IMG/VR virus record: IMGVR_UViG_3300024258_000097 | Coordinates: 1 to 28,100 of that record | Strand: one strand, 5' to 3' | DNA from: a virus | Length of the DNA: 28,100 nucleotides | Shown here: piece by piece, positions 1 through 22,178 of the stretch | How the letters are laid out: every line of letters starts with the position of its first letter | How positions within the stretch are numbered: position 1 is the first letter of the stretch | Program-made: the position numbers and the translations under genes | Notes under the pieces: generated by a model | Told to the model about the DNA's origin: nothing | The model's database searches: none | The model's input: only the letters and a program-made list of their open reading frames with translations

Positions 1-1113
1 GACAGCACCACTTAGTAATCTAGCATACTTTAATAATTTAGCACCAGCCGCAATTGCGAGTGCTTTTGCAGAATCCATCATGGCAATAGATGTTGCCACA
101 ACTGCGTTTCTAAGCCACTTTGCCCAATGAACAAGTTTTGCCCATGCAGATGCAGCGAGTGCTTTTGCAGAATCCATTAGATTGATCCAAGCGATGCCGA
201 TTGCAGTGGTGAACAATCCAGCCCAATGTTTTAGTTTTTTCCACATGGTGGCACCACCAATGGTTGTGGCAGTTCCCGAAAGATAGGCTCCAGCAACTTT
301 CACACCTGCCGCAAATGCAACACCTGCTCCCCACAAAAAATTTAACCATCTAAATACTTTAGCACCAATCCAAAATGATGATATTACTAATGCGATTTCG
401 GCGATATTATCGATAAGCAACCCAAGCATCCACTCCAATCCATATTCTGAATCCCAAACGACATCATACAACTCGTCCAATGTTGGTTTTAACTCTTCCC
501 AATTCAATGCTGCTGTTAAAGCAGTTGCTAAGAATCCGATGTTCAATAACCAATTCTTAATCTTATCCCAAACAGTTTCCTTGCTTAACATTTTTGCCAC
601 TTTGTCTAATGACTGTTTAATCTTTCTAATAGCAACGAAGAATATCAATTTACCAAAACCACCAAGACCTCTTTGTTCTTCAAGATCTTGTTCAAGTCGA
701 CCAGCCATGCTGTGCTCTTTTTTTTCCATTCTGTCTTCATTCTTCTTATCGAATAATAAAGAACTAGCACTGTTCTTAGCAATAGTAACTAAGGATTCTT
801 TCATCATGCCAAACACATCACCAAAACCCATATCATTATCTTCAACTAATCGTTGAGCATTAACTGGTTTCCATTCAGTTAGGTTGTCATAGAACCCCTC
901 TAAAGAATCGTCTATACTTTCCCACTGACCGGTTGTATCTTTTAATAGGTGTTCTTTAAGAACTTTAGAAATATTATCTGTAGACTTTTTAATGGCGAGC
1001 ATACCAGTTCTGAGACTTTTTTGAAGACGTTTTCTCCCCTCATCTGCTGACTCCATTTGCTCACCAATTGCGTTTACAATTGGTAGATTTATTTGACTGT
1101 TATTTGCTGCCAT
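1..1113 (-). CDS. Tape-measure-like tail protein (partial, N-terminal 371 residues)
   Basis: An open frame starts at an ATG at 1113 and stays open to the left edge, so only the first 371 residues are visible. A purine-rich stretch (AGAAGAGAGACAGAAGA) lies just before the ATG. The N-terminal half is charged and helical. From about residue 185 it becomes hydrophobic, with several likely membrane-associated segments rich in Trp, Ala and Gly. A motif MDSAKALA occurs twice, 33 residues apart. Tape-measure proteins set tail length, are helical with hydrophobic patches, and are normally encoded directly after the tail assembly chaperones. This gene follows a gp26-like gene and a small overlapping ORF, which is that position. 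In T4 the equivalent is gp29. I infer the role from position and composition, not from a motif unique to the family. A large structural protein of another kind is possible. Confidence 0.6.
   Translation of the reverse strand, partial: MAANNSQINLPIVNAIGEQMESADEGRKRLQKSLRTGMLAIKKSTDNISKVLKEHLLKDTTGQWESIDDSLEGFYDNLTEWKPVNAQRLVEDNDMGFGDVFGMMKESLVTIAKNSASSLLFDKKNEDRMEKKEHSMAGRLEQDLEEQRGLGGFGKLIFFVAIRKIKQSLDKVAKMLSKETVWDKIKNWLLNIGFLATALTAALNWEELKPTLDELYDVVWDSEYGLEWMLGLLIDNIAEIALVISSFWIGAKVFRWLNFLWGAGVAFAAGVKVAGAYLSGTATTIGGATMWKKLKHWAGLFTTAIGIAWINLMDSAKALAASAWAKLVHWAKWLRNAVVATSIAMMDSAKALAIAAGAKLLKYARLLSGAV
56..177 (-). repeat. Two exact 23-bp copies 99 bp apart inside the tape-measure-like gene
   Basis: The same 23 bases occur at 56-78 and 155-177. 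The 99-bp offset equals 33 codons, so the repeat is in frame and encodes MDSAKALA both times, followed by Ala/Lys/Leu-rich helix. This looks like a repeated helical unit of a tape-measure protein. More copies may lie beyond the left edge. Confidence 0.7.
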
Positions 1114-1273
1114 TCTTCTGTCTCTCTTCTTGTTCTTCTAAAAAGTTCTTTAAAAATATAATGTATATTTCCCTTTCAAAAGGAATCATATTATCAAGTT
1201 CGGACAACGAGTATTTATGGTGTTGCATTAATGCGAAATTTAACTGGTAGTGATTCGCTAACGAATCATGCAT
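1100..1273 (-). CDS. 57-codon ORF downstream of gp26-like gene; probable frameshift-expressed chaperone extension
   Basis: This small frame begins at an ATG at 1273, six bases past the gp26-like stop, and ends with TAA at 1100, overlapping the tape-measure start by 14 bases. The product contains MIPFEREIYIIFLKNFLEEQ, an amphipathic helical stretch with a Pro-Phe-Glu-Arg motif, and ends in a highly charged tail. No Shine-Dalgarno sequence lies before the ATG. The frame is open without a stop back through the end of the gp26-like gene, in the -1 frame, to a TTTTTTT run. It is therefore best explained as the C-terminal part of a -1 frameshift fusion. By position it matches the T part of lambda GT and sits where T4-type phages keep small baseplate assembly factors such as gp51. 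Independent translation by coupling remains possible. Confidence 0.6.
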   Translation of the reverse strand: MHDSLANHYQLNFALMQHHKYSLSELDNMIPFEREIYIIFLKNFLEEQEERQKNGSK

Positions 1274-1291
1274 TAATGCTACATAAAAAAA
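1225..1291 (-). promoter_or_regulatory. Candidate programmed -1 frameshift signal: slippery heptamer plus nested stem-loop
   Basis: Read on the minus strand, positions 1291-1285 are seven T residues phased as T TTT TTT with respect to the gp26-like frame, followed by ATG and the TAG stop. Bases 1284-1280 (ATGTA) form a 5-nt spacer. The 10-base palindrome GCATTAATGC then occurs at 1279-1270 and again at 1234-1225; the copies can pair as a 10-bp stem. Enclosed is a perfect 7-bp hairpin, TGATTCG-TTAG-CGAATCA (1268-1251). Heptamer, spacer length and structure match the classic layout of a -1 frameshift site. Slippage would give a fusion of about 293 residues (232 from the gp26-like frame plus 61). 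Efficiency cannot be judged from sequence. Confidence 0.65.
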
Positions 1292-1980
1292 CTTTGTAAT
1301 CCTTCAAGTTTAATAGAATCCTTCTTACCACATTCTTCACATGTCCATTCAACTTCATGAGAAAGTTTTGGAAGATTGTTAAAGAATTCAGTCATCTTCA
1401 TAAATTGAGATTGGTTAAGTCCATCTACCCAGTCTTTAATTTCTTTCTTAGTAAATTCGTTGTAAACATTATTATCATCAAAAACATATTCAACACAATT
1501 ATTTATTACATCAAACATTGATTCTGGTGATTTTTCGTCAATTAAATTAACATCATCAACCCCAGGATATCTAAGGAAAACACCGATATCATCAGTAATC
1601 ATTATTTTATTCTCAACTTCCTTATCAGTAACTTTAATATCATCAATGTTAATTTCAATTTCAGTAGAATGTTTACATTCCGATTCTTCATCTGGATGAC
1701 CAATCTTAAGTTTGATCACTTCACCAACAGACTTTCCTCTAAGTTTCATGAATAGATATTCAATATCAAAGGTTGCTAGTTTCTTAACATTAATATCAGT
1801 GAGCACACATGCCTTGATAATATTTTGTGTTGCTTTAGATATTTCTTTCTGAGAACCACCTTCTAGTGCCATCAAAAGAACCTTTTCTTCTTTTACCAAA
1901 AATGGGCGATATTCTATTTCTTGTCCAGTTGATGGTATTGTTGTACTAAATTGTGGTGCTGCTATACTTGGTAGGTTCAT
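1279..1980 (-). CDS. 26: T4 gp26-like baseplate hub assembly protein / tail assembly chaperone
   Basis: The 233-residue product has the N-terminal signature of the T4_baseplate family (PF12322 by recall): a short extended start, then an Ile-Glu-Tyr-Arg-Pro-Phe-Leu-Val-Lys-Glu-Glu-Lys-Val-Leu-Leu motif near residues 22-36. T4 gp26 is about 208 residues. In T4 it is needed for hub assembly but is not thought to be a major virion component. The C-terminus has a CxxC pair (Cys214, Cys217) of zinc-knuckle appearance. The start at 1980 is preceded by a good GGAG ribosome binding site. The stop lies immediately after a poly-T slippery run, and the gene sits just before a small overlapping ORF and the tape measure. 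That is the arrangement of tail assembly chaperones, so the short and frameshifted forms may both be made. Confidence 0.8.
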   Translation of the reverse strand: MNLPSIAAPQFSTTIPSTGQEIEYRPFLVKEEKVLLMALEGGSQKEISKATQNIIKACVLTDINVKKLATFDIEYLFMKLRGKSVGEVIKLKIGHPDEESECKHSTEIEINIDDIKVTDKEVENKIMITDDIGVFLRYPGVDDVNLIDEKSPESMFDVINNCVEYVFDDNNVYNEFTKKEIKDWVDGLNQSQFMKMTEFFNNLPKLSHEVEWTCEECGKKDSIKLEGLQSFFM

Positions 1981-2001: not shown

Positions 2002-3012
2002 TTATTTTAAATTAGCATTGTTCACAGTTCCGTGAACTTGTTGTGTTAGGTTGGGATGTTCTTTCTTCCATTGCCTCGCTCTGGCTCTGGAATCATCTTC
2101 CATTGACATCATAGTTTTATAATAGTCGGTATTATCGGTTTTATAATAGTCGGTATTATCGGAAGGTGTGGGGTTATATGTATCTGATTCTTTCACATAA
2201 TTCGGGTTTCCGGATATTCTATTGTTGGAATCCGGATCTTCTTTGTATCCGTGAGATACTACACCATCATCATATTGTACATTTGATCCAGAACCCATAG
2301 ACAATAGGTTATTAAAATCTAAATTTGCCAACGTTCCTATTCCAGACATACTTGATATGTTTCCTATCCCAGGAAGTCTTAATGCTCCTGCTAATCCATC
2401 TTTACCTAAATTGAACGAGAATCCCATTCCCAGCCCAGATTGATTACTGTTATCGTGAGTAATATATCTATAATTCCTATAAGCGAATGTCACTGTTAAT
2501 TTTGCAGGATCAGAACTTCCCCATGCCATAGAAACATCACCCATCAAAATTGGATATGCTTCTTGCAGAATGTGAATAGTTCTTAACCCACCATCAGCAC
2601 CGAATTGCCTAATAGTAACGGTGCTGGCATAATCGTCAAAATATTTTACATTATAGTTTGACGACCCATCCATTTTGTGGTGTTTGTAGTCATAAGCACC
2701 TGTGCCAACCATTTGATTTTGCCATTTCTCAAAAAATTCCTTCTCTCTTAGATCTTCACTTAATATGAATGAGATTGTTGAGTCACCATACACTTGACCA
2801 TAAGGCACTTTATTAATCGGTCCATAATTTGAAAACTTATGTTCCGTTGTCATTATCGTTCTTCCTGGAAGGTTTGCTGTGTCAGCACGATATGACATTC
2901 CTCTAGAGTTCTTATCTGTGTTAGTTATCCAAACTTCAAAATGACTAGAAGAAGCCACTCCAGAAGTATTCAAAGACGATACCATATTTTGTATGTTAAA
3001 ACCAGTTGCCAT
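2002..3012 (-). CDS. 54: gp54-like baseplate tail-tube initiator (gp19-fold)
   Basis: The 336-residue product carries the tail-tube (T4 gp19) type domain over roughly residues 15-185. Visible features are the LPGRTI segment, NKVPYGQVYGDSTISF, and FFEKWQ, a set seen in tail-tube and tube-initiator proteins. Beyond residue 190 there is a Gly/Ser/Asn-rich tail that true tube proteins (about 163 residues in T4) lack. T4 gp54 is about 320 residues and starts tube polymerisation on the gp48 cap, so gp54 is the better call. The start codon overlaps the preceding stop (TAATG), suggesting coupled translation with the gp2-like gene. The tail contains an exact 8-residue duplication (DNTDYYKT). A second tail-tube paralogue is the main alternative. 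Confidence 0.7.
   Translation of the reverse strand: MATGFNIQNMVSSLNTSGVASSSHFEVWITNTDKNSRGMSYRADTANLPGRTIMTTEHKFSNYGPINKVPYGQVYGDSTISFILSEDLREKEFFEKWQNQMVGTGAYDYKHHKMDGSSNYNVKYFDDYASTVTIRQFGADGGLRTIHILQEAYPILMGDVSMAWGSSDPAKLTVTFAYRNYRYITHDNSNQSGLGMGFSFNLGKDGLAGALRLPGIGNISSMSGIGTLANLDFNNLLSMGSGSNVQYDDGVVSHGYKEDPDSNNRISGNPNYVKESDTYNPTPSDNTDYYKTDNTDYYKTMMSMEDDSRARARQWKKEHPNLTQQVHGTVNNANLK
2114..2161 (-). repeat. Perfect 24-bp tandem duplication in the gp54-like C-terminal tail
   Basis: Bases 2114-2137 and 2138-2161 are identical and directly adjacent. The unit is 24 bp, so the frame is kept and the residues DNTDYYKT are doubled. Complete identity at the DNA level suggests a recent slippage event in a disordered linker. 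Confidence 0.9.
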
Positions 3013-16235: not shown

Positions 16236-19200
16236 ATGGCAATCGAAACAAATTTAAACCAATCCCCATACTTTGATGATTTTAACGAGGACAAGAACTT
16301 TCATAGAGTTTTATTCCGTCCAGGTTATGCAGTACAAGCACGTGAATTGACTCAAATACAATCTATTCTACAAAACCAAGTAGAACGTTTTGCTAATGAG
16401 GTTATTGTTGATGGAACTGTTATTAGTGGTATTGGTTTATCAACTAAAACAATTGAATATGTTAAACTTAGAGATAAGGATGCTAACAACCGTGTATTAC
16501 TATTAAGTGACTTCTTTACAGGAAGTGCTATATCTAATGTTGTTGTTACTGGTGCTACTTCAGGTGTTACTGCAAAATTAATAGATGCTAGAGAAGGTTC
16601 TGAATCAATTGCTCCAGACTATTTTTCGTTATTCGTAAACTACACAAACTCAGGTGCTAATACTACAACTAAAACGTTTAATGATAATGAAACATTATTA
16701 GTAAGGCATTCAGGTAATAGCACATTCGTAGTTGCTGCGAACTCTATTTCTTCGGACTCAACTGGTTTAGGTTTTAGAGCAACTGTTTCTGATGGTGTTG
16801 TTTATCATAAAGGAACTTTCATTAAAGTTAATCCTCAAAGTGTAATCGTTGATAAGTATAATACATCTCCTGATAAGAAGATTGGATTTGAAACAAAAGA
16901 GAGTTTAGTCAACTCAAATGAGGATTCTTCATTACTAGACAACTCAACTGGTTCTACTAACTATGCGGCTCCAGGCTCTGATAGATTAAAGTTATCTGCT
17001 ACATTATCAGTAAGAAGTTTAACTTCTGCAAATACAACTACATTCTTTACGATTGCTGAAATCGAAAATGGTAATATCGTTCAAAAGTTTATCGATACAA
17101 CGTATTCTGATATTGGTAAATATATTAATGAAAGAGCATTTGAAACAAATGGTAACTTTGCTGTTGAACCATTTAATATTAGAATTAGAGAACACTTAAA
17201 GAATACTAACAACTTGGGTCGTTATTCTTCTGCAGATGGTGGTAGTGTAAATAAACTTGTAGCAGAAGTTGAAAGTGGAACTGGTTATGTTGGTGGTAAT
17301 AGAGTTTCTATCGAGGCATCTTTATTTAGAGATGTAGATAAAGCAACTGAATGGGACACTAAGGATGGTCGTGTAATCGGTCAAGCATATGGTAATTACA
17401 TTAATGCTAAAGAAGTTGTTGGTACTTGGGACTTCCAAGGTTTGAGAGAAGTTACTTTACAAGACGCTAAACAACGTGGTATCTCTGGTAAGAACTTAGG
17501 TATTCAAGGTGCGAGGGGTTCTTCTATTGGTACTGCTCGTGTACGTGGATTCCAATGGGATTCTGGTACTCCAGGAACTGCTTCTGGGCAATTTAGAATT
17601 TACTTATTTGACGTTCAAATGAATTCTGGTAAGTCATTCTCTGAAGTAAGAGGTGTTTATGAGAATAATACATCAGGTCCTAAAGCGATGTGTGATATTG
17701 TACTTGAAACTAACGGTACTGCTAAATTACAAGAAACTGGATTAAATACATTAATCTTTCCTTTCACACAAAACGGTACTAAAACTCTTAGAGATTCTGA
17801 TGGTAACATTGATACACAATTTGTTTACAGAACTGAAAAGTCGGTAAGTTTTGCCACAGATGGAACTGCTACTGTAACTGCGAATACTGCTCACTCTGGT
17901 GGTACTGAAGTTAATAATGATACTGGTGCTCCTCTATCAAATACTGACGAAAGAAATATTGTTGTCGTTTCTAGAGGCGCTGTTAGCACTGATGCTCATA
18001 CTGGGCAAGTAACAGCATTTACTGGAAATACAATTACTGGTTCTGCTACTACGTTTTCTACACAATACCAAGTTGGCGATTTTATCACCATTGAAGATGG
18101 TGCTAATACAGTAACAGAAAGAATTATGACTATCAACAGTGATACGTCTATTCAAGTTGCTAATACAGTTCCTTATACTAGAAGTTCTGCAGGTCTTGCT
18201 CATAAAACTACTTTCCCAAGTGGTTACATTTTTGATACAAGTGCTAATGGTACGATTACTTCAACTTCTACTCAACATCAAATCAACTTACAACAAGCAA
18301 ATCTTGCTTCAACGTTTACTGCTTCGGTTTACTTCAACCGTTTAAGAAGTAATGCTGTCCAATCTGCTAAGACTGTATTGAAAGATAAGTTTATTCATAT
18401 TAACACTAACACTAATACTGCGACAAATAAAGGTCCATGGTCATTAGGTGTTTCTGATGCATATAAAATAGTTGCTGTATATCACGGTTCTAATACTGGT
18501 GTTTCAACTTCAAGTAATGATGTCACCTCTCACTTTGAATTGAATGATGGTCAGAAAGATGCATTCTACGACACTTCCCTAATTAAACAAAAAGCAACAA
18601 GTTCTTTAGACTTGTCTAGCGCTGGTTTGATGGTTAAGTTCAATTACTTTGACAGAAACTTTTCTTCAGGTATTGGTTACTTATCTGTAGACTCATATCC
18701 TATTGATGATACTACTGCAGCTAATACTGCTGCTATTGTGACTCAAGAGATCCCTATATTCACTTCACCTACTAGTGGTAAGACATATGATTTAAGGGAT
18801 TCTGTAGACTTCAGACCTATTAAAACAAATACCGTCACACCGTCTGGTACAGGAACTGTTGCCTCAGCACCTACTAACCCTACTAATTCATCTACATTTA
18901 GTATTTCGTCAACTGGTGCTCATATGCCGACTCCTGATGAGAACTTCCAAGCAGATATTCAATATTACTTGCCTCGTAAAGACAGGATTGTATTGACTAA
19001 AGAGGGTGGAGTTGAAGTTGTTAAGGGTGTTGCTTCATTAACACCAAGAACTCCTGATGAATTAGCAGGTTCAATGACACTTGCTGTACTGAACATTCCA
19101 GTGTTCCCATCATTATCCCCATATGTTGCTAAACAATATAACAGAAATGATTATCAAGTTACATTAGATATTGAAAATAATCGTAGATATACTATGAAAG

Positions 19201-22178
19201 ATCTACGTGCTGTTGAGCAACGTGTTAAGAATTTAGAATACTACTCATCACTTAATGCTCTTGAGTCGTCTGCTAAGAATAAGCAAATCTTCGGTTCTAC
19301 TGGTATTGATAGATTTAAGAATGGTTTCTTAGTTGATAACTTTGATGGTCATAATATTGGTGATACAAGTAAGGTTGGATATCGAGTTGCGGTTGATAGA
19401 AACGAATCACAATTAAGACCATCGTTTAGCAGAACAGATGTTAATTTCAATCAGTCTGCGGTGCTAGCATCTTCAAATATTACGAAGTCTGGTGACTTAA
19501 TTACTTTATCATATACGCATACAAGTTTACACGGTCAACCATTTGCGAGTAAGATTAGAAACCCAGTTCAAGAATTATCATTCAACTGGAGAGGTGAGGT
19601 TACATTAAACCCTGCTGTTGATAATACACCAGACATAACTACATTACCAGATATTCAAATAGACTTTGGTGGTATGTATAATGCTATCGCACAAGTTGCT
19701 GATTTGGCAGGTGTGACTGGAACAGATTGGGGTAATTGGAATACTTCTTCAGTTTCATCTTCAACAAGAAATGCTGGAAATTGGAGTAGTGGTTGGTCTG
19801 GTGGTGTAAGAAGAACTACTACTACACAAACCAATCAAATTAGAAGTGGTATTCAAACTAACATTAGTCCTTCAACAGAAACATTTAGTATTGGTAATTT
19901 TGTAACTAACGTTGCTGTTAGGGATTATATCCGACCTAGATCTATTCAGTTTACTGCAAATCGTATGAAACCTAACACACGTGTTTGGCCATTCTTCGAT
20001 GGAGAGGCAGTTGCTGCATATTGTACACCTGCTAACTCATCATTTGCTAATACTGCTAATGAGGGTGCAAGTTTAACAACTGATGCAAACGGTAATGCTT
20101 ATGGTATGTTCCGTATTCCTAATGACGATAGTTTAAAATTCCGAGTTGGTACTAGACGATTTGAATTGAAAGATATTGCAAATCTTATTACTGAAGAAGC
20201 ATTGGTATCTACTTCTGCTCACGGTGACTATACAAGTATTGGTTTAGATGTATCTCAAAGAGGTTCGACTATTAATATGGTCACTCCTCAAATATCTCAA
20301 GCGAGTGTAACTAATAATAGAACCTTGACATCAGTCAATTCTAGAAACGTTACTACTTGGAGGAGAAGTCCACCTTCATCAGATCCAATTTCACAAACGT
20401 TTATTGTTTCTGCGGGTGACTCTGATGGTGCATTCATTACTAAGATTGACTTGTTCTTTGGTAGGAAGTCTGATACTTATCCTATCACTCTTCAAATTAG
20501 AGAAGTTGAGAATGGTTTCCCTACTACAACGATTGTTCCTTATGGTTCTAAAACGTTGCAACCAAGTGAAATTAATATTGACCCAACTACAGGTGATACA
20601 GCAACAACGTTTGAATTTGATTCTCCTGTATTCTTAAAGAATAACACGGACTATGTATTCGCAGTATTACCTGCTGGTAACTGTGATGAGTTCGGATTAT
20701 GGGTTGGTCGATTAGGTGGAACTGATGTGTTTACTGGAGAATTAATCCACAAACAACCAGCATCTGGTGTGATGTTTATGTCTGCTGATAATAAGACTTG
20801 GTCTCCAATTCAAAATGAAGATATTAAATATAGAATCCATAAAGCAAGTTTCACTACAAACACTGGTACGGTATATGTAGAGAATGATGATATTGAATTT
20901 ATGGCATCTGATAATTTCTACGGAACGTTTAACCACGGTGAGAAAGTTGTTGCCGAATCAGTATTAAGACTACAAGGTATTACTGGTAATGCTGCAGGTG
21001 ATTATATCACGGTTGGTACAACTATTGCGAATACAACTGGTACATCTGCTAATGGTGTTGTTAGAAGTATTATTAATGAATATGCTAATGGTACAGTTAT
21101 TGTTAAAGTAGATCCATATAATCCAACTAAGTTTGGTACTATGGCAACTGGTAATAATTCAGTTCTCATTTTAGGTTCTAACTTTACAAGTGGTAAGGGT
21201 AAGGTAGATTCATTTACTGCTAATACTAACAGTGGTTTTGTTAAGTTTATTGATGCACCAAATGGTAAGATCTATCTTGATAGTGCTACTGGCGCATTTG
21301 CTAACGGTTATGTTCGTGGCCAAGTTTCTGGTGCTGCGACAAGAATAACAACAGTTGATAATATTCAAATCAATACTCTTGTTCCTAAGATTCCTCAAAT
21401 CAATTATGGTAATACGGCATCTTCATGGTCAGTAAGAACTACATCTGATTCTGCTGTAATTGGTGCTTCATATACTAACATTGATGTTAGTGTTGATAAC
21501 AACTTCTTGGTTGGTGAAAAGAAAGTATATTCTAAGACTAACGAAACTGCATTAATTTCAGTTGATGGAAGTAAGAAGTCATTAGTAATGAAAGGTTCTT
21601 TCTCAACAAGTGATACAAATGTATCACCAGTAATTGATACTTCAAGAATTAATGGAATCGTTATCGGTAATGTAATAAATAATACTAACGTAGATGAACA
21701 TAAAGAAGTTGGTGATGCGTTGGTTAGATATATTACTAAACCAATTACATTGGATGACGGACAAGAAGCGGAAGACTTAACTGTATATTTAACTTCTTAT
21801 AAACCACAAGGTACTGATGTTAGTGTATATGCTAGAATTCATAATTCTGAAGATTCAGATGACTTTGGTGATAAAGATTATACACCATTGACTCAAATCA
21901 CTTCTAGTAATACTTATTCGGATAGTGTTGATACTACTGACTTGAAAGAATTTGAATATGGATTTAGTGCTAATGTTGCTGGTGGTGGGTTCTTAACAAC
22001 TGCTAACTCTCATGCTCATCTAAATAGTTCTAACAGTGAAGTTGTTGCTTATCGTTCTGCTGGTGGTGGTATATACCATACCTATAAGACGTTCGCAATT
22101 AAGATTGTTATGACGAGTACTGGAACTAATATTGTTCCGTTGGTTAAAGATATGAGGGCAATTGCTTTACAGAAATAA
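16236..22178 (+). CDS. Giant DUF4815-type tail/baseplate structural protein (1980 residues)
   Basis: The N-terminus has the pattern of DUF4815 proteins from marine T4-like phages: LNQSPYFDDFNEDKNFHRVL, FRPGYAVQARELTQIQSILQ and GTVISG. The central part (about 950-1060) has LRDSVDFRPI-like and NRRYTMKDLRAVEQRVKNLE, a coiled-coil stretch. A jelly-roll-like segment follows near 1390-1530 (ITKIDLFFGRKSDTYPITLQ, NNTDYVFAVLPAG, VMFMSADNKTWSP). Many Gly/Asn/Thr-rich beta units lie between. I take it as a peripheral baseplate or fibre-anchoring protein occupying the place held by genes 9-12 in T4, none of which is recognisable here. The exact role is unknown to me. It begins 12 bases after gp8, with a weak ribosome binding site (AAGGTAAAAA). 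Confidence 0.75.
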   Translation: MAIETNLNQSPYFDDFNEDKNFHRVLFRPGYAVQARELTQIQSILQNQVERFANEVIVDGTVISGIGLSTKTIEYVKLRDKDANNRVLLLSDFFTGSAISNVVVTGATSGVTAKLIDAREGSESIAPDYFSLFVNYTNSGANTTTKTFNDNETLLVRHSGNSTFVVAANSISSDSTGLGFRATVSDGVVYHKGTFIKVNPQSVIVDKYNTSPDKKIGFETKESLVNSNEDSSLLDNSTGSTNYAAPGSDRLKLSATLSVRSLTSANTTTFFTIAEIENGNIVQKFIDTTYSDIGKYINERAFETNGNFAVEPFNIRIREHLKNTNNLGRYSSADGGSVNKLVAEVESGTGYVGGNRVSIEASLFRDVDKATEWDTKDGRVIGQAYGNYINAKEVVGTWDFQGLREVTLQDAKQRGISGKNLGIQGARGSSIGTARVRGFQWDSGTPGTASGQFRIYLFDVQMNSGKSFSEVRGVYENNTSGPKAMCDIVLETNGTAKLQETGLNTLIFPFTQNGTKTLRDSDGNIDTQFVYRTEKSVSFATDGTATVTANTAHSGGTEVNNDTGAPLSNTDERNIVVVSRGAVSTDAHTGQVTAFTGNTITGSATTFSTQYQVGDFITIEDGANTVTERIMTINSDTSIQVANTVPYTRSSAGLAHKTTFPSGYIFDTSANGTITSTSTQHQINLQQANLASTFTASVYFNRLRSNAVQSAKTVLKDKFIHINTNTNTATNKGPWSLGVSDAYKIVAVYHGSNTGVSTSSNDVTSHFELNDGQKDAFYDTSLIKQKATSSLDLSSAGLMVKFNYFDRNFSSGIGYLSVDSYPIDDTTAANTAAIVTQEIPIFTSPTSGKTYDLRDSVDFRPIKTNTVTPSGTGTVASAPTNPTNSSTFSISSTGAHMPTPDENFQADIQYYLPRKDRIVLTKEGGVEVVKGVASLTPRTPDELAGSMTLAVLNIPVFPSLSPYVAKQYNRNDYQVTLDIENNRRYTMKDLRAVEQRVKNLEYYSSLNALESSAKNKQIFGSTGIDRFKNGFLVDNFDGHNIGDTSKVGYRVAVDRNESQLRPSFSRTDVNFNQSAVLASSNITKSGDLITLSYTHTSLHGQPFASKIRNPVQELSFNWRGEVTLNPAVDNTPDITTLPDIQIDFGGMYNAIAQVADLAGVTGTDWGNWNTSSVSSSTRNAGNWSSGWSGGVRRTTTTQTNQIRSGIQTNISPSTETFSIGNFVTNVAVRDYIRPRSIQFTANRMKPNTRVWPFFDGEAVAAYCTPANSSFANTANEGASLTTDANGNAYGMFRIPNDDSLKFRVGTRRFELKDIANLITEEALVSTSAHGDYTSIGLDVSQRGSTINMVTPQISQASVTNNRTLTSVNSRNVTTWRRSPPSSDPISQTFIVSAGDSDGAFITKIDLFFGRKSDTYPITLQIREVENGFPTTTIVPYGSKTLQPSEINIDPTTGDTATTFEFDSPVFLKNNTDYVFAVLPAGNCDEFGLWVGRLGGTDVFTGELIHKQPASGVMFMSADNKTWSPIQNEDIKYRIHKASFTTNTGTVYVENDDIEFMASDNFYGTFNHGEKVVAESVLRLQGITGNAAGDYITVGTTIANTTGTSANGVVRSIINEYANGTVIVKVDPYNPTKFGTMATGNNSVLILGSNFTSGKGKVDSFTANTNSGFVKFIDAPNGKIYLDSATGAFANGYVRGQVSGAATRITTVDNIQINTLVPKIPQINYGNTASSWSVRTTSDSAVIGASYTNIDVSVDNNFLVGEKKVYSKTNETALISVDGSKKSLVMKGSFSTSDTNVSPVIDTSRINGIVIGNVINNTNVDEHKEVGDALVRYITKPITLDDGQEAEDLTVYLTSYKPQGTDVSVYARIHNSEDSDDFGDKDYTPLTQITSSNTYSDSVDTTDLKEFEYGFSANVAGGGFLTTANSHAHLNSSNSEVVAYRSAGGGIYHTYKTFAIKIVMTSTGTNIVPLVKDMRAIALQK

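Follow-up and report, generated by a model that had tools for sequence, protein, structure and literature searches.

Probable programmed −1 frameshifting in the tail assembly chaperone gene of a T4-like phage

The window analyzed here is the whole 28,100-nt stretch of the IMG/VR virus record IMGVR_UViG_3300024258_000097, from an uncultured marine T4-like phage. It contains a gp26-family gene that ends on a run of T, and the C-terminal domain of the putative tail assembly chaperone (TAC) is present only as a −1-frame ORF after gp26. How is this second frame translated, and is the arrangement new for T4-like phages? The first-pass annotation, made from the letters alone, had proposed a programmed −1 frameshift and a new form of this system. 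The genes and signals that bear on the first question are the following.

2002..3012, minus strand: tail tube or tube initiator gene, upstream of the TAC gene (PF23849, E 5.4e-11; phrog_45 tail tube, E 4.6e-30)
1279..1980, minus strand: gp26-family gene, TAC-N (short tail assembly chaperone), 233 aa (PF12322, E 3.5e-63; phrog_150, E 8.8e-68)
1285..1291, minus strand: slippery heptamer T TTT TTT, in phase as X XXY YYZ, read from the sequence
1284-1280, minus strand: spacer ATGTA, read from the sequence
1279..1281, minus strand: zero-frame stop TAG, which ends 6 nt past the heptamer, read from the sequence
1100..1291, minus strand: −1-frame extension, TAC-C ("gp51-like") domain, conserved from the slip site (phrog_634, E 1.1e-25)
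1..1113, minus strand: putative tape measure gene, downstream of the TAC gene; an identical phage (L001) carries a complete copy of 619 aa

The gp26-like gene and its −1 frame

The TAC genes sit on one strand between a tail tube family gene and the putative tape measure gene. The latter is assigned on a weak match, since the 619-aa protein of L001 matches phrog_1535 ("tail length tape measure protein") with E 4e-5 and phrog_167 with E 1e-3. The phrog_634 family, matched by the −1-frame extension, is labeled "baseplate hub assembly catalyst". The extension also matches the far end of phrog_150, where the longer members of that family go on. Neither a second gp26-family gene nor a separate full-length gp51 gene is found in the 28-kb fragment, which represents an incomplete genome.

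Proteins 99–100% identical to the gp26 of the window are encoded on six IMG/VR contigs (L001–L006), which points to a recurrent uncultured population. Elsewhere in the window, a 1980-aa ORF of unknown function (16236-22178; phrog_358) adjoins baseplate wedge genes.

The last codons of the gp26 frame, on the minus strand, are ...CAA AGT TTT TTT ATG TAG. The T TTT TTT heptamer noticed in the first-pass annotation lies exactly at 1291-1285, in the correct phase. The −1 frame has no stop from the slip site (FFYVALMHDSLANHYQLNFALMQHHKYSLSELDNMIPFER...) through the 57-codon ORF to TAA at 1102-1100, and its end overlaps the ATG of the downstream gene at 1113, as the same annotation had read. Together, gp26 and the extension form a virtual TAC-NC fusion of 293 aa. 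The junction peptide predicted for this fusion, as the product of a −1 slip, is LEGLQSFFYVALMHDSLANHYQLNFALMQHHK.

The AlphaFold model of gp26 has a pLDDT of 92.6. Among solved folds, a structural aligner ranks 3FGX first (Z 8.1) and then 2OB9, the tail assembly chaperone of HK97 (Z 7.6); the rows below these two have Z of 5.0 and 2.6. The match to 2OB9 comprises 84 residues within residues 1–85, and the top matches cover the first 85–95 residues. A PDB sequence search finds no relative. Foldseek against PDB gives the model no significant E-value, and the likeness to TACs stands out only in the structural aligner. In its modeled N-terminal part gp26 resembles the TAC fold, with moderate Z values, and a Z of 7–8 alone can reflect a common fold.

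The slip site and the −1 frame in relatives

Relatives came from two scans that used gp26 rather than the slip site as their key, and from named phages. The 111 loci with a heptamer were reduced to 87 non-redundant ones at 90% identity of the extension. The heptamer T TTT TT[T/C/A/G] is in phase in all 87 non-redundant heptamer-bearing relatives, which are phylogenetically linked and do not stand for 87 independent events. The zero-frame stop ends 3–12 nt past the heptamer, and exactly 6 nt past it in 77 of the 87. Other Phe-Phe sites in gp26 have the slippery form in only 8 of 79 cases. The heptamer is seen in the cyanophages S-PM2, S-H9-1, S-CAM8 and Sf-CH8, in Vibrio phages nt-1 and D479, in Aeromonas phages phiAS5 and CC2, and in Stenotrophomonas, Sinorhizobium and Rhizobium phages; a Desulfovibrio phage carries it too. 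The loci without a heptamer are those of T6 and three distant phages, along with L076, for which the automated extraction missed the end of gp26. As a side observation, the tape-measure position is occupied in S-PM2 by a large ORF (L028:3386-5709) that is unlike the 619-aa protein of the window phage: a stretch of it resembles ADP-ribosyltransferases (Pfam ART, E 5e-6), and it matches peptidase and endolysin families.

The composition of the heptamer bears on transcriptional slippage, by which RNA polymerase would stutter on the T run and leave a fraction of the mRNAs one base out. Seven T in the window and eight in six relatives would suit such stuttering. The heptamer types are TTTTTTC (53 of 87), TTTTTTT (30), TTTTTTA (3) and TTTTTTG (1), so that 57 of the 87 relatives have only six T, broken by C, A or G. 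Six T are short for polymerase slippage, while tandem slippage of the ribosome is still possible on them. The heptamer is conserved in its codon phase and not in the length of its run, and we consider transcriptional slippage exceedingly improbable.

The −1 frame shows no stop in any of the 87 relatives within the 50 codons scanned; the median length to the first stop is 1 codon in the 0 frame and 5 in the +1 frame. An open −1 frame could also be read as a separate small protein, the 57-codon ORF being translated by re-initiation at the ATG at 1273-1271 or at a later ATG, with no fusion. The window does have this in-frame ATG, 5 nt past the TAG stop. Stops and starts overlap (TAATG, TGATG) in the distant phages Vibrio nt-1, Stenotrophomonas BUCT608, Rhizobium I1_9 and Cygsa01, and annotators have called separate genes. 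However, no Shine-Dalgarno-like motif precedes ATG 1273 in the window, and only 3 of the 87 relatives have such a motif ahead of their first ATG. There is no ATG before codon 19 of the −1 frame in 43 relatives, and none of ATG, GTG and TTG in the first 19 codons in 27. Yet these codons are conserved: Leu10 is kept in 82, Asn17 in 82 and Phe18 in 84 of the 87. Among the 43 relatives without ATG, substitutions at the three codon positions of the −1 frame number 5384, 4138 and 7988, favoring the third. The slippery run is retained even where the zero-frame protein changes from Phe-Phe to Phe-Leu, as in three relatives with TTT TTA and a Rhizobium phage with TTT TTG. Because codons ahead of the starts are conserved and biased to third-position changes, and because Shine-Dalgarno-like motifs are rare, a separately initiated protein cannot explain the −1-frame data, and re-initiation without fusion is highly improbable. 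Some separate re-initiation is conceivable in the window, given its ATG just past the stop.

Relatives that keep both ORFs but lack the run, or carry it out of phase, would speak against frameshifting. Close and middle-distance relatives favor it. Only the distant Ackermannviridae (L116, L124, L125 and L126), Cygsa01 (L111) and Vibrio phage D493 (L114) have an open and conserved extension without the heptamer. At the end of gp26 they have ATTTTC (Ackermannviridae and Cygsa01) or CTTTTC (D493). Three of the Ackermannviridae (L116, L124 and L126) contain no ATG ahead of a conserved LIFEIDLLSYF segment, and their sequences suggest that a non-heptamer shift site may be used.

The claim of a programmed −1 frameshift in the gp26-like gene is strongly supported by the comparison, with in-phase heptamers in every one of the heptamer-bearing relatives. 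The locus very probably encodes a TAC in two forms produced by such a frameshift. Most ribosomes would translate the 233-aa TAC-N and terminate at TAG 1281-1279. A minority would pause on T TTT TTT, probably aided by the nearby stop codon and, in the clade of the window, by a stem-loop 5 nt downstream. Both tRNA-Phe would then slip back by one base, and reading in the −1 frame would give the 293-aa TAC-NC with the gp51-like C-terminal domain. If the parallel with lambda gpG/gpGT applies, the product of the next gene, the tape measure protein, would be coated by the chaperones, with the C-terminal domain recruiting the tail tube protein. For the window phage, slippage itself, its rate, a stimulating effect of the stem and a function as chaperone are inferred.

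The downstream stem-loop

Two further features lie downstream of the slip site.

1225..1279, minus strand: putative stimulatory stem-loop, with a 10-bp outer stem of 1279-1270 and 1234-1225 (fold z −4.96; role inferred)
1251..1268, minus strand: inner 7-bp hairpin TGATTCG-TTAG-CGAATCA with the loop TTAG (predicted fold)

The first-pass annotation had described two copies of GCATTAATGC, five bases after the heptamer, that form a 10-bp stem enclosing a 7-bp hairpin. The predicted fold of the minus strand has exactly this form. The copies lie at 1279-1270 and 1234-1225, 45 bases apart, and the outer stem starts 5 nt after the heptamer. The minimum free energy is −19.5 kcal/mol, none of 200 shuffles is equally stable, and about 1% of the 60-mers of the window reach a stability this high.

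Could the poly-T run and the palindromes be chance or coding by-products of an AT-rich genome? Read in the −1 frame, each GCATTAATGC copy gives Ala-Leu-Met (within ALMH and ALMQ), and the repeat is therefore due in part to coding. The z of the 60 nt downstream changes from −4.3 to −2.4 once the −1-frame protein is held fixed. The run itself is another matter: an in-phase T TTT TT is found twice in the 8,116 codons of the whole window, and it stands at the homologous position in the 87 non-redundant relatives. Chance or by-product as the origin of the whole arrangement has a next to negligible probability.

In the relatives, the mean synonymous z downstream of the slip site, with the −1 protein fixed, is −1.37, versus −0.18 to −0.30 in three control windows (Wilcoxon p below 1e-6). 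This structure is heterogeneous, with z below −2 in only 32–39% of the relatives. In the clade of the window (10 relatives), 94% of cells in the outer stem are paired, with little covariation, near chance. The inner hairpin is poorly conserved there, with 63% of cells paired. The cyanophage-like clade has a different 5-bp hairpin, in which both sides are changed in four of the five pairs, above most shuffles. Other clades have differing hairpins or none downstream of the slip site.

The palindromes were considered as a conserved defining element and rejected, the outer stem being limited to the clade of the window and the inner hairpin decaying even there. It is plausible that the stem-loop raises slippage in the clade of the window, although the structure is heterogeneous and the covariation in this clade is near chance. 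It can be speculated, tentatively, that the TAC frameshift sites of T4-like phages carry fast-evolving, lineage-specific stimulatory RNA hairpins, such as the nested GCATTAATGC stem and the covarying 5-bp hairpin of the cyanophage-like clade, behind an invariant U-rich slip site, with the heptamer replaced by an ATTTTC site in Ackermannviridae.

Relation to T4 gp51 and to known frameshifted chaperones

Frameshifting is reportedly conserved in several T4-like groups, with the group of T4 itself having separate genes 26 and 51. The gp26 of T6 ends GAA TTC TTT GAG, without a slippery heptamer, and its gp51 is one continuous gene of 249 aa on the opposite strand (divergent). The virtual fusion, built from the 87 relatives, aligns along nearly the full length of T4-type gp51, with E 2.7e-11 for T6, 1.5e-15 for an Aeromonas phage and 1.6e-18 for T6 and the Aeromonas phage together. 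The slip point maps to the VF-KLLVNPDEI segment of gp51. Residues 1–201 of gp51 are a PF12322/gp26-family domain in Pfam. Because the fusion aligns end to end and PF12322 occupies residues 1–201, gp51 looks, by its sequence, like the long form encoded in a single frame. In the T4/T6 arrangement gp26 corresponds to the short form and gp51, colinear with the fusion, to the long one, which agrees with the first-pass view of T4 gp26 and gp51 as separated counterparts of the fusion. The T4/T6 arrangement differs in that T6 lacks the heptamer, while the window lacks a separate gp51 gene in its 28 kb. The equivalence of single-frame gp51 to the fusion also speaks against re-initiation.

The slip site of lambda is G GGA AAG, unlike the U-rich Phe-Phe site of the window. 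The TAC-N of the window, at 233 aa, is also larger than that of the lambda type and continues C-terminally past the matched domain, and a strong downstream stem-loop is found in its clade. Otherwise the locus is like lambda gpG/gpGT and the −1 frameshift chaperones that long-tailed phages make (Levin 1993; Xu 2004; reviewed in PMC5009743) in its two predicted forms, its predicted −1 slip near the end of the first ORF, its place between the tail tube and tape measure genes, and its TAC-like fold (HK97, 2OB9).

The first-pass annotation had proposed a new form of this system or a missing link between the two arrangements. This did not hold: the arrangement is usual among the phages sampled (marine T4-like phages, cyanophages and Vibrio phages, as well as many others), and was previously reported. 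A missing link unique to the phage of the window is ruled out, the arrangement being general among its relatives. The TAC genes of T4-like phages were reportedly identified by Vladimirov, Gautam and Davidson (2022, Virology 566:9-15), and a 2025 paper (PMC12846349), citing them, describes poly-T slippery sequences in T4-like TAC-N genes. On these two sources, the central claim is already known. Other literature searches on gp26/gp51 frameshifting found nothing, and a 2016 review (PMC5009743) describes G-T frameshifting as widely conserved "except T4". The frameshifted TAC of T4-like phages is thus already known, and the window is a well-supported further example. It shares with the known T4-like TAC genes (gp26 / gp26-51) the gene family, the place before the tape measure gene, the C-terminal domain and a TAC-N whose 3′ end carries a poly-T slippery site, this last as cited in PMC12846349. 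Nothing essential is unlike, and the window has a clade-specific stem-loop. The TAC frameshift of Vandenendeviridae and Andersonviridae (phage Adele, PMC12846349) is also similar, with GTTTTT at the end of TAC-N and a −1 frame open in all genomes. These are other phage families than that of the window, and the likeness is one of motif and open frame.

In public records (L119, L122, L120, L124, L126 and others), the −1-frame domain often lacks an annotation or has been assigned a false internal start, and a joined frameshift gene is annotated in none of the records inspected. Joined gene calls are needed, since the C-terminal half has been missed or falsely started in these records. The slip scheme of the lambda type is used by most of the sampled relatives. 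The separate gp26 and gp51 of T4, the textbook exception to frameshifting in tail chaperones, are unusual even among T4-like phages.
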